A stretch of 64,000 nucleotides of DNA from Chytriomyces cf. hyalinus JEL632 (taxonomy: Eukaryota; Chytridiomycota; Chytridiomycetes; Chytridiales; Chytriomycetaceae). The stretch covers positions 1-64,000 of the forward strand of contig JAIWWG010000019.1 of assembly GCA_025435555.1 (NCBI GenBank), written 5' to 3'. The position numbers and the translations under genes were made by a program. Positions 49,714-54,346 of the stretch are shown here, piece by piece; within the stretch, counting starts at the first letter, position 1; every line of letters starts with the position of its first letter. Under the pieces are notes generated by a model. It saw only the letters and a program-made list of their open reading frames with translations, made no database searches and was not told the DNA's origin.

Positions 49714-50550
49714 TCAAAATGCCTCCGCGGTACTCGGCTCAGTGAAAAGGTTTTTCAAGGCCTCCTTCGAAGTACCGCCCTTGCCATACCAAGGAAGACT
49801 TCGATTCACCAGCGAGATCTTCATCAGCAGCAACATGAGAGCAGCCAAGAAGAGAATTAAATCAAACGCGGCATTTGACAAGTAAAACTGAATCTCGCTC
49901 GCTGCAGTGATTGGCGTCATGAAAAACGCAATATTCTGCGTAATGAACGCGACCAGAGCGATACTAAGACAAGCATTTGAAGCGAGTCCGTACTGCGCAA
50001 TGCAAATGTAGTTTTACGGGTCTGCCACATTCATCATTTTCACATTGTCAATGTGGCAGATGAACGAATAGGTCAGGAAGGTGTCCAATGAGATTGTAAC
50101 GCTTCCGGGGATGGTGGCACTGACGACATACACGAGACAGTTTTCGCGCGGCGACAAGGCCAGGAACTCGACAAAAAACGCGGTGGAAGAAAGCAGCGGC
50201 GACAAGTAAAGAAGATATCGAAAAGCAGTAGTGCACACAGAGGGTCTTGAGTACAACTTCAAGACTTCTTGGGATCGAGCAAAATTGTAGAATAGATGCA
50301 GCGTTTCACTTGCGGCGAAACTGAGTCCAACTCCTTTCATGCAAGCGTGTTGGATTTCCTCACTATCCCTATTATGGTGACTGAAAGAGGAAATAGCAAA
50401 GAAACTTGCGAGCGATACGTTGGCACCCGAGAGGAGCAAGTTCGGGCCCGTGAAGAGAACCCTCAAGCGTCCAGCGCTTCTCCCAGAACCGATTTCAACC
50501 GTGCAACACCAACGCGACCACCAACGCAGAGTAGGTTCAAAGCGGCCCAT
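49714..50550 (-). CDS. Multi-pass membrane protein, uncharacterised
   Basis: Exons 50550-50029 and 49992-49714 join in phase 0 (266 aa) across a 36-nt intron (GTGGCAGACC...GCGCAG). Five to six hydrophobic segments: LLLSGANVSLASFFAISSF, TAFRYLLYLSPLLSSTAFFV, NCLVYVVSATIPGSVTISLD, ACLSIALVAFITQNIAFFM, AFDLILFLAALMLLLMKISL. A Lys/Ser-rich tail ends the protein. The start is uncertain: the first 40 residues (Arg/Trp-rich) may be untranslated or intronic, and 50613 is an alternative ATG. No family recognised; could be a degenerate seven-TM receptor. Divergent neighbour of the class C GPCR. Confidence 0.5.
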
Positions 50551-51120
50551 TTGTTGAGTTGGCCACAGAAAAGTCGATTGTTGAAGTTTATGCTCTTGTG
50601 AATAAATCGTCAACTCTTTTGGATGGCAATTCGCGAAAATATTCTTGAATAAATGGATTGTTTGTAATGCAGCAACTTCAAGAGTCGCGAAATATAAAAC
50701 GTGCGCCGGTGGGCGTCTGAGAGTGTGAAACTGCCGCCGCGTTTCTCAACCCCGCACCAGTCTCATGCTGATCCTTCCAAAAACCATTCCCGAATTAGTT
50801 TGTCAAAACGGCAAGAGTTGAATGCGTAAGTAAGATTGTTTACAGATTTTGAGTGGGGCGATTTGAACCAGTGTCAAAAGCCGATTACCTCAGAGAGTGA
50901 CTGACCATGGGAAGACTGGACTGATTGGAAGGGAGCCTTGAATGAATTTCATGTCGCCGGATTGGAGTCTTCAAAGGACGAAAAGTGACAAAACTATTCA
51001 ATGCTGCTCGGCAGATTCCGTGTTTAAGACCCTGTCGGATCTTTACTGTGGAAATGTACTTTGCGGAGGATTTTCATGCGTTTGAACATCTCAATAAAAA
51101 TGCACTGGCTTCAGTTTTAG

Positions 51121-54100
51121 GGGCTTTCATTCTCGTCTTCTCGCGTTCGTTGTTCAGGCGAAGGGAGCGGCCGCGTTGGCCTCTGGAGGTACAGTCCAAG
51201 GCGGAGAGGTTAGGGACAGCTTTTTCCAAACATCACAGAGCAGCAACTCACTGTTAATATTCTGCTTCTGCCGTCCATGAAGAGTAACTCCAATCCTCCT
51301 CCATGATGATGATCGGGAAATGAACACATGCTGTTTTTTCAGATATTTCTCTGGAAAAGTCGCTGACGCAAGAGTTCATGGACACGAATTTCACACCAAA
51401 GACGGGCATAAAAGTCGTGATTCACATGACCGCGACACGGATCACTACGGATTACGCGTCAGTTGGGCCCCATCGAAGTTGCATTGGAATTCCCAACACT
51501 GAATCTCTCCCGCCCAACACACACAAAATATAGAACCCAGCTGCAGCTGTACTTGAGCACAAACGACTCTTCCATGGACATTTTCATGATGGACGTTGTC
51601 TGGCCGCCGGAATTTGCAGAGTACCTGATTGACTTGTCTCCAATGATCAGCCCTGAGCTTGCCGCGTTACACAATCCCTCCATTTGGAAAGCTAATGTGG
51701 TTGACGGTCGTCATATTGGTATCCCCTTTACTGTAGATTACGGACTCTTTTATTATCGTGATGACTGTGAGCAGGAAGTTGTCTTTCTGTCACTGATAAT
51801 TTGTGGTACTTATTTCCTAAGTAGTGTTGGCAAAACACGGCTACACAGACCCACCCGAGACTTGGGACGAAATGGAAGCAATGGCACTCGATATCAAGAG
51901 CAAAGAACCGTCTGTGGATGGATATATTGGGCAGTTCAACGGTACCTATTTTTTCCAAAAGTTCCTCTTCTGACCCATAATTGAGATCATACTCTGTTCA
52001 ATCAGCTTACGAGGGGCTTACCTGCAATTTAATGGAGTGGCTTCATAGCGCCGATGCAGGAGGTATCATATCTCCAAACCAGACAGTCACATTGGACAAT
52101 CCGGCAACGCGGCAGATGCTGAGCCGTGTCAAAAACTGGTTCATGAACGGAGTTACCCCAAAGTACGCACTGTCATACTCCGAAACAGATTGTGAGGACA
52201 TATTCCAGTCGGGACAGGCCTTGTTTATGCGGCATTGGCCACCAACCATGTTAAGCTTGGAACGGGCAGGCATCAAGTTTTCGTTCAAAGTGACTGGTCT
52301 GCCGGGAACCTCGAGGGAGACCAAATTCGCATCAACGCTTGGTGGATGGAATCTGGGTGTCAGTAAAGCCACGAACAATCAGGACGCTGCGGTCAAACCG
52401 CTCTTGTTTATGGCTACCGCTGAGTTTCAAAAGTTTCGATTTGTGGCGATCGGGGTGTTCCCATCCGTGTCTTCGTTGTATCAAGGTAATGAACTTTTCT
52501 TGCCAAGCGAAGCATCCACAGTTGCCCTTACGGAAGTTTTGCAGATCCCGACGTTTGCGCTAAAATTGACTGCCAACTGTTTGGCAACCTGCGAGTTTCT
52601 CCTCGCCCTGCTGCAGGAAGTGGAAAGCATGTGCGTAACCTCGTCATCTCACACGTCTTCGTGCTAACAGATAAAAACAAACGCCAGTATCTCGAAGTCT
52701 CGCGAATTTTGTACACATCCGTCAACTCGTACTTAGGCCAAAAGATTGATATCAACACCGCTCTGGAAGATTCCGTATCGAGAATTGAAGAAACGATCGG
52801 GACCTATGCAGCCGTCGTTATGGCACAGGCTCGCTACATTCACTACGAAGAAGGAATCGCAAAAGTATTCACCACGCTTGCATTTACGGGTGTCGCCACA
52901 TGCCTTGCATTAATGGTATTCGTTTGCGTGTATCGGAAAAACCCGGTCATGGTTGCTGCGAGCCCCGACTTTTTATGTTTGGTAGAGTCGCACATATTCT
53001 TTTTATGATTTCGTTCTGTGTTCATTTTCTGTCCAGATCATATTCGGCGCAATGATCGAATTCGGCGCCATTTGTTTGTTTGTGGGGAAGCCAACGGCGT
53101 CGCTGTGCTTGGCTCAACCGTTCGCTGTGACTCTCGGTTACGCGATCGCGTACTCTGCGTTACTGACTAAAACCTGGCGCGTGCATCGGTGAGTTTAAAG
53201 AAGTGGTCCTGAGTTGATGAAAAACTGATTGAAGCAAATCAGCATTTTCGATGCCAAGTTTGCAAAAGTAGGACGCGCGTTCACGTCCTCAAAATTGATG
53301 AAATACGTTGGCATTTACGTTGCAGTAAATCTGGTGCGCTTGACGGGGTGAAGGATCAGTAACGGCACTAACAAAACAACAACAACGACAGGCCATCCTC
53401 CTGGCATGGGCATTCACAAAAGCACCACAACCAAAAGCCATCTTCCAAAACTCTCGCAGCGCATACCTCGCATGCACCTCGGACGCCGATACCCCGTTCA
53501 CAGCAACCTTACTTTCTGTCAACGGTCTGATGCTGCTCTTTGGATCATGGCTGGCATACAAGACACGTAATATTGACAAAGAGTACCGAGAAAGCTACTA
53601 CATTGCCATCATCATGTACAACACTTTGATATGGGGATCCATCTCCGCCGGGTTTGTGTTTGTTGCGCCTCTCGGACACGAGCTGCATTTCTCAGTCCGA
53701 TCCGCGTCGATTCTGATGGCGTGCTTCGGTACTCTAATCTTACTGATGGTCCCCAAGATCCGGGCCGTGTTCCACGGCGCATTCCCCGTCGTAAACACGT
53801 CGAGCGAAGAGATGCAGCGACAGAGCGCCGCAATGCAGCAAAGCAGCTTTCTCAAAAAACGTCCCAGCCAAGCTTGCGACCTGGACAAACACACGACGGA
53901 CGTGGTGCTTGTGGACTACCGTATGGGCAAATCGACGCTGTTTCTGGGAAACTGGCGTGCTGCAAAGTTGAACCTTGTCGAGCTTAAAGATGGGATTCTG
54001 GTTGCGTTTACAAGAGCTGGGAAGAAAGGGAAACCTGTTGTTGGTGTCGTCTTGTTTTTTTTCTCTTGATTTGCTGTTCGTTGACCCCTCACACATCTTG

Positions 54101-54346
54101 CGTCGCGTTTTTTTATTCTTACAGGATTCGCGGCTGGTTCACTGCTTCTCACTCGACTACGGAGAACTTGCAGAGGTTACTCTCTTGACGAAGGATCCAG
54201 ACTCGAAGCTCATGTCAGCGCAGATCCGGCTCCGAGATGGGCACGTGTTTGAGGTTGTCTCGGACGACCCAAAGAAACTGCAGTCTGTCCTGGATCGCAT
54301 AAAATGTAGTGGGCGAGCAAGAGGGCAGTCCTCAAGCAACAAGTAA
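51121..54346 (+). CDS. Class C GPCR with ABC-type sugar-binding ectodomain and C-terminal PH-like domain
   Basis: Traced exons: (51121)-51188, 51343-51457, 51534-51766, 51825-51941, 52006-52485, 52545-52634, 52671-52981, 53037-53188, 53243-53333, 53392 to 54036 or 54045, 54125-54346. The start codon, in an upstream exon, was not located; the first traced exon ends the signal peptide (LLAFVVQAKGAAALASG). Residues ~25-400 are a bacterial-type solute-binding protein (SBP_bac_1): EKSLTQEFMDTNFTPKTGIK, DIFMMDVVWPPEFAEYLIDL, GIPFTVDYGLFYYRDDLLAK, GYTDPPETWDEMEAM, FMRHWPPTMLSLERAGIKF. A 7tm_3 bundle follows: AFTGVATCLALMVFVCVYRK, the conserved ECL1 Cys (SLCLAQPFAVT), KTWRVHRIF, and LMVPKIRAVF at TM7. 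The cytosolic tail ends in a PH-like fold (LNLVELKDGILVAF...FSLDYGELAEV...HVFEVVSDD). Sugar or small-solute sensing through G proteins is inferred. Confidence 0.85.

Follow-up and report, generated by a model that had tools for sequence, protein, structure and literature searches.

A fungal class C receptor gene with a binding ectodomain of the maltose/trehalose type and a predicted role in disaccharide sensing

The window analysed here is a 64,000-nucleotide stretch of contig C100, which carries a receptor gene on the forward strand at 51121–54346, where the initial annotation had placed it. In the spliced model, the 12 exons together encode 850 residues in one open frame, which starts with an incomplete codon and closes with a stop codon at 54346. 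The exon borders were placed by eye from open frames and splice dinucleotides, and all 11 introns (50–85 nt) begin with GT and end with AG. The original proposal of a single spliced gene is retained, although the model has 11 junctions in place of the ten first counted. The spliced frame contains no internal stops, versus 18, 22, 27, 34 and 45 in the five other frames. The features of the gene are as follows.

50822–50829, plus strand: tentative start exon of two codons and two bases, the sole candidate in 50701–51120
51121–51188, plus strand: exon 1, the first recognised exon; hydrophobic and signal-peptide-like by eye, with no adjoining in-frame ATG
51121–51188, 51239–51283, 51343–51457, 51534–51766, 51825–51941 and 52006–52485, plus strand: exons 1–6
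52545–52630, 52688–52981, 53037–53188, 53243–53333, 53392–54039 and 54125–54346, plus strand: exons 7–12
51239–52801, plus strand: binding ectodomain of type II (SBP_bac_1/SBP_bac_8), from exon 2 into the early part of exon 8 (Pfam, PDB)
52688–52981, plus strand: exon 8, an unbroken exon in which the binding domain finishes and TM1 and the beginning of TM2 lie (open frames, Pfam, PDB alignment)
52841–53757, plus strand: class C seven-transmembrane domain (7tm_3), exons 8–11 (Pfam, family matches, PDB chains)
53758–53892, plus strand: fast-evolving cytoplasmic linker after TM7 (identity window against paralogue L009)
53893–54307, plus strand: conserved segment of the cytoplasmic tail, of no known family (paralogue identity; Pfam, PDB and profile searches)

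Exon 8 corresponds to model residues 383–480; in the PDB comparison the binding domain aligns as far as residue 416, and the 7tm_3 domain starts at residue 434. The binding domain thus ends, and TM1 and the first part of TM2 follow, within a single exon, which makes ectodomain and membrane domain parts of one protein. Two paralogues of the gene, L009 and L010, lie on contig C112 and share its domain architecture and intron phases. Ten introns with the same phases were recovered in each by a spliced alignment guided by the window model, using a purpose-written aligner that is biased towards its guide. Exons 3–10 are equal in length in all three genes (115, 233, 117, 480, 86, 294, 152 and 91 nt), and such agreement of lengths and phases, with open frames at 58–66% identity, is not expected by chance. 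The complete paralogues comprise 874 and 859 residues, and in both of them SBP_bac_1, SBP_bac_8 and 7tm_3 score over the Pfam cut-offs. The last intron of L009 (4231–4308, 78 nt) contains no in-frame stop, so that a form retaining it would also be open.

A fusion of this kind could arise artificially if the model had run together two adjacent genes, one for a secreted binding protein and one for a receptor. A precedent for a separate binding protein is found on contig C163, where a gene for a sugar-binding domain seems to have just one membrane helix and lacks any 7tm_3 match. The junction in the window gene lies inside exon 8, however, and three paralogues share both the fusion and its introns; on these grounds the two-gene explanation was rejected as scarcely credible. 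The proposal that an SBP domain and a 7tm_3 domain are fused in one protein is thereby borne out by exon 8, by the Pfam domains and by the two paralogues. The gene on C163 (L013, at about 193000–195300, minus strand) encodes a sugar-binding domain and, as read by eye, a lone hydrophobic stretch and an acidic tail at its end; that contig has no 7tm_3 match. It is of the same general kind as the membrane-anchored SBP homologues described in the available text of PMC5168858.

Between the window gene and L009, identity amounts to 69% in the seven-helix part, 38% in the linker and 57% in the tail, and the seven-helix part is 61–69% identical among all three paralogues. For the whole pair dN is 0.242 and dS 1.61. 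By segment, dN and dS are 0.186 and 1.77 for the ectodomain, 0.191 and 1.57 for the seven-helix domain, 0.615 and 1.42 for the linker, and 0.336 and 1.00 for the tail. Four of the 15 comparisons give an infinite dS and most others a dS above 1.4, which puts it near or past saturation; the estimate of selection is thus rough and to be trusted only in its direction. In that direction, constraint appears to act on all parts of the receptor, and most weakly in the linker.

The 5′ end of the window copy is less regular than the remainder. By inspection, L009 and L010 each begin with an ATG exon that encodes a hydrophobic leader and is followed by a phase-1 intron, as is exon 1 of the window gene. 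The open frame that holds the window exon 1 lacks an ATG, however, and damage to the 5′ end of this copy is therefore possible. The search for an upstream start exon covered 50701–51120 and called for an ATG exon in matching phase that ends at a GTA or GTG donor and is followed by an intron no shorter than 40 nt. The candidate that it returned, at 50822–50829, needs an intron of 291 nt, which exceeds all the gene's other introns in length. The signal peptide of the initial annotation is accordingly retained in part: the hydrophobic character of exon 1 is evident by eye, but a complete signal peptide is not confirmed for the window copy, as the exon 1 frame has no ATG.

Upstream, in head-to-head orientation with the receptor, a divergent seven-helix-like gene occupies 49714–50745 on the minus strand. 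The pair recurs on C112, where the counterpart of this neighbour (75716–76606, minus strand) adjoins L009, and relative to that open paralogue the window copy has one in-frame stop. A query with the neighbour returned 23 genome matches at E≤0.01, and neither a Pfam match (E≤1) nor a PDB match (E≤10) was found for it.

The missing ATG, which sets the window gene apart from L009 and L010, and the stop in its neighbour would both be understandable if the window copy were a pseudogene or a 5′-truncated duplicate, leaving the C112 paralogues as the only working genes. This seems unlikely, given an 850-codon frame free of stops, GT and AG at all 11 introns, the possible start exon and a dN far under dS.

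The ectodomain was searched against Pfam with the 849 complete residues of the model, so that Pfam numbering equals model numbering minus one. SBP_bac_1 (E = 2.7e-23, residues 47–335) and SBP_bac_8 (E = 7.1e-23, residues 52–356) both scored over their cut-offs. For ANF_receptor (PF01094), the family that had been named beforehand as the contrary outcome, no match was listed in the window protein at E≤1, with most matches weaker than about 0.1 being removed by the HMMER filters. An ectodomain of the ANF type was rejected on these results. A match to FANCI_HD1 (0.018) fell under that family's own cut-off and was disregarded. The SBP families lie N-terminal to TM1, in the position of a Venus-flytrap ectodomain, and homology points to a two-lobed fold.

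The best PDB match of the ectodomain is the Thermus thermophilus 6j9w series (E about 9e-60), followed by Thermotoga MalE3 (6dtq; 8.6e-50), SmoF (7nbz; 3.9e-37) and the trehalose/maltose-binding protein of Thermococcus (1eu8; 5.6e-37); a profile made from the three paralogues gave the same leaders with lower E-values. Together with the Pfam families, these sugar binders substantiate the original assignment of a type II, carbohydrate-type binding domain. Identity to the Thermus wild-type chain extends to 123 of 357 aligned ectodomain residues. According to the available text of PMC12096829, the proteins 6j9w, 1eu8 and 6dtq bind linked disaccharides, and six pocket residues are named for a related protein. 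Five of the six, with the numbering matched by motif, are taken to correspond to Asp97, Trp271, Gly306, Gly307 and Arg374 of the model; these are identical to the Thermus residues and invariant in the three paralogues. The sixth residue in that text, Phe119, has no assigned position in the window model.

A second set of positions emerges from the Thermus structures themselves. The five chains taken into the comparison (two further distinct Thermus sequences were left out) vary at three positions, Arg49, Asp118 and the Arg of an RP motif, presumably through engineering. Two of these three residues are kept in the window protein, and Arg49 is replaced by Tyr76. A Tyr occupies this position in all three paralogues, and the ligand specificity may for this reason differ from that of the Thermus protein.

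On the basis of the closest solved relatives and the shared pocket residues, a short alpha-glucoside is the expected ligand, though without certainty. The sequence neighbours could be misleading if the pocket has changed and accepts something else, for example a different oligosaccharide, a sugar acid or a compound other than a sugar. The uniform change of the Thermus Arg49 to Tyr would fit such a shift, as would the match to SmoF, a binder of sulfoquinovosyl-glycerol, which is as good as that to 1eu8. Weighing on the other side, the top two match groups, Thermus and MalE3, bind alpha-glucosides as far as the available literature text describes them, and the five named pocket positions are kept in every paralogue. 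A different class of ligand is possible but, in our estimate, rather doubtful, and we retain a short alpha-glucoside as the expected ligand.

No bacterial donor of the ectodomain was found: a scan of genome contigs gave five loci, all distant, with 22–33% identity in the best segment. Two of the three genomes that carry these loci match the ectodomain profile (3.4e-11 and 3.6e-6).

The membrane part matches 7tm_3 in Pfam with an E-value of 4.4e-50 (residues 433–682 in Pfam numbering), spanning positions 2–251 of the 251-position profile, and a family search of the genome places 7tm_3 matches at 52841–53757. Its best PDB matches are to mGluR1 (1.1e-19), mGluR5 (3.4e-19) and GABA-B2 (9e-19), receptors with which the window protein shares the seven-helix domain. 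The class C bundle of the initial annotation is confirmed by these Pfam and PDB results. The model further contains Cys504, KTWRVHRIF at 525–533, Cys589 and PK at 682–683, which we take to be marks of class C receptors; the K-TWR-HRIF motif and the PK at TM7 had both been singled out earlier and are present in the spliced product.

The genome amounts to 37.8 Mb in 242 contigs. It has 12 matches to the radial-spoke family (best 1.1e-40), which is matched by none of 14 prokaryote controls, and 67 to chitin-synthase-2 (best 4.3e-166), matched also by 4 of the 14. This content is in keeping with a flagellate fungus, for instance a chytrid, and the fungal host named in the initial annotation agrees with these fungal and flagellar gene families. 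A total of 56 7tm_3 matches merged into 51 class C loci, among which 22 have an ANF_receptor match upstream, three have the sugar-binding domain and 26 have neither at the given sensitivity. Pairing with ANF was scored as a match at most 3.5 kb upstream on the same strand, and hence reflects nearness and not gene models; the search works exon by exon, and the counts are accordingly lower bounds. The SBP_bac_1 family search found three loci and missed that of the window, and a protein query found four. Several of the ANF-associated loci are clustered on contigs C193, C11 and C210.

The initial annotation had set the gene against the Venus-flytrap receptors of animals. The type II ectodomain of the window protein upholds this contrast, but its starkness is reduced by the 22 of 51 class C loci with ANF upstream. 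The genome also contains 96 exon matches to G-alpha, indicating that a G-protein system is at hand and suggesting an expanded family. The G-alpha matches are spread over many contigs, with local clusters on C100, C161, C171 and C220.

GABA-B1 depends on GABA-B2 for G-protein coupling. By analogy, the window protein might serve only as a binding or decoy subunit, unable to couple by itself, with another class C receptor signalling as its partner. The match of the seven-helix domain to GABA-B2 is similar in strength to those with mGluR1 and mGluR5, and the 51 merged loci could supply partners. The 61–69% identity of this domain among the paralogues speaks against a non-coupling subunit, which we hold to be distinctly improbable; a receptor that itself signals is preferred.

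The conserved segment of the tail spans model residues 729–838, and a genome-wide search with it at E≤1 (four candidates scored) matched only the window gene, L009 and L010. It had been described as a PH-like, lipid-binding domain. None of the three tails matched PH (PF00169) in Pfam at E≤10, the only match being DsrH (0.11) for one tail, and a profile search of the PDB gave only a thioredoxin match with E = 1. For a direct comparison, a profile was drawn from 15 PH domains of the same genome, those remaining from 24 PH loci after removal of seven with stops in the match and two partial ones. The tail scored 7.40, a value attained by 2 of 60 column shuffles, and six held-out true PH domains all scored higher (12.7 to 132.7). 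The test is a weak one, as three of the six true domains received a probability of 99% and the other three 1.3 to 10.9%.

Fragment models, folded without an alignment, have three strands and a helix for the exon-12 part (pLDDT 63) and a strand-strand-helix-strand order for the exon-11 part (pLDDT 59). A Foldseek search with the exon-12 model gave no matches at E≤0.001; its weak matches include the tandem-PH protein Rtt106 (3fss; E 0.22, probability 0.96) beside many chemokines. The Rtt106 match is not significant and mildly favours a PH-like half of the tail, and a PH-like order of strands is possible in these models. As the Pfam, PDB, profile and fragment-fold tests lend the claim no support, the PH domain and the lipid-binding role proposed for it were set aside. 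The tail is a conserved cytoplasmic segment that may serve in interaction or sorting. Among open-licence papers, judged by title and the opening of the abstract, no description of such a tail was found, which is limited evidence of absence; a term search of the available text of PMC5168858 for tail and PH words yielded nothing on it, and the available main text of PMC3251606 does not contain C-terminal, C-termini, pleckstrin or PH domain.

The architecture of the receptor has precedents. According to the portions available, SBP_bac_1 (PF01547) occurs in eight glutamate-family receptors of Allomyces macrogynus, with related periplasmic domains in others (Krishnan 2012, PMC3251606), and three gut fungi have about 100 class C receptors (107 in Table 2), almost half of them with a type II sugar-type domain, for which a role in sugar sensing has been suggested (Seppala 2016, PMC5168858). 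A further text, likewise available in part, counts 918 glutamate-class receptors in fungi, with enrichment in Blastocladiomycota and Chytridiomycota (PMC12842992).

The anaerobic gut-fungal receptors combine a domain of the type II sugar-uptake kind with seven helices, as in the window, and the Allomyces receptors likewise carry SBP_bac_1 on a class C receptor, a likeness drawn from description and not from sequence. Because the same fusion and the proposed role are thus in print, in so far as those two texts describe them, the architecture is not new, and the novelty implied by the initial annotation falls away. In the available text of PMC5168858, animal class C receptors have a type I (ANF) ectodomain, in contrast to type II in the window, and the gut fungi have no ANF-domain class C receptor, unlike the present genome with its 22 ANF-preceded loci. 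From the Thermus maltose/trehalose-binding protein, with which it shares the sequence identity and the five pocket positions described above, the window protein differs in being fused to seven helices and in having Tyr in place of Arg49; the Thermus protein is a component of an ABC importer and has no membrane domain. Two features may be new: the tail, which is conserved and unclassified, and the presence of such a receptor alongside the ANF-preceded class C loci.

Taking the observed gene structure, domains, homology, residue conservation, paralogues and constraint of the receptor together, we read the window gene, with a probability of roughly three in four, as encoding a class C G-protein-coupled receptor with a binding ectodomain of the maltose/trehalose (short alpha-glucoside) type that would sense disaccharides and signal through a G protein. 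In a flagellate fungus, the receptor would reside in the plasma membrane. Its ectodomain would close, in the manner of a Venus flytrap, on maltose, trehalose, sucrose or a similar disaccharide, and a heterotrimeric G protein would receive the signal of closure by way of the seven helices. The receptor may act as a dimer and may serve in finding food. More speculatively, and on balance doubtfully, it may represent a small alpha-disaccharide-sensing lineage of class C receptors that has acquired its own conserved signalling tail of a new fold or family, existing beside ANF-type receptors such that one G-protein network reads two unrelated Venus flytraps.

The gene offers a full-length, paralogue-backed eukaryotic receptor with a sugar module of bacterial type, a close structural template and few candidate ligands. 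In the available text of PMC3251606 and PMC5168858, ligands of such fungal receptors are proposed rather than demonstrated, and the family that includes L009 and L010 is a practical one in which to test them. The occurrence of type I and type II ectodomains in one genome bears, in addition, on how frequently class C receptors have swapped their sensors.
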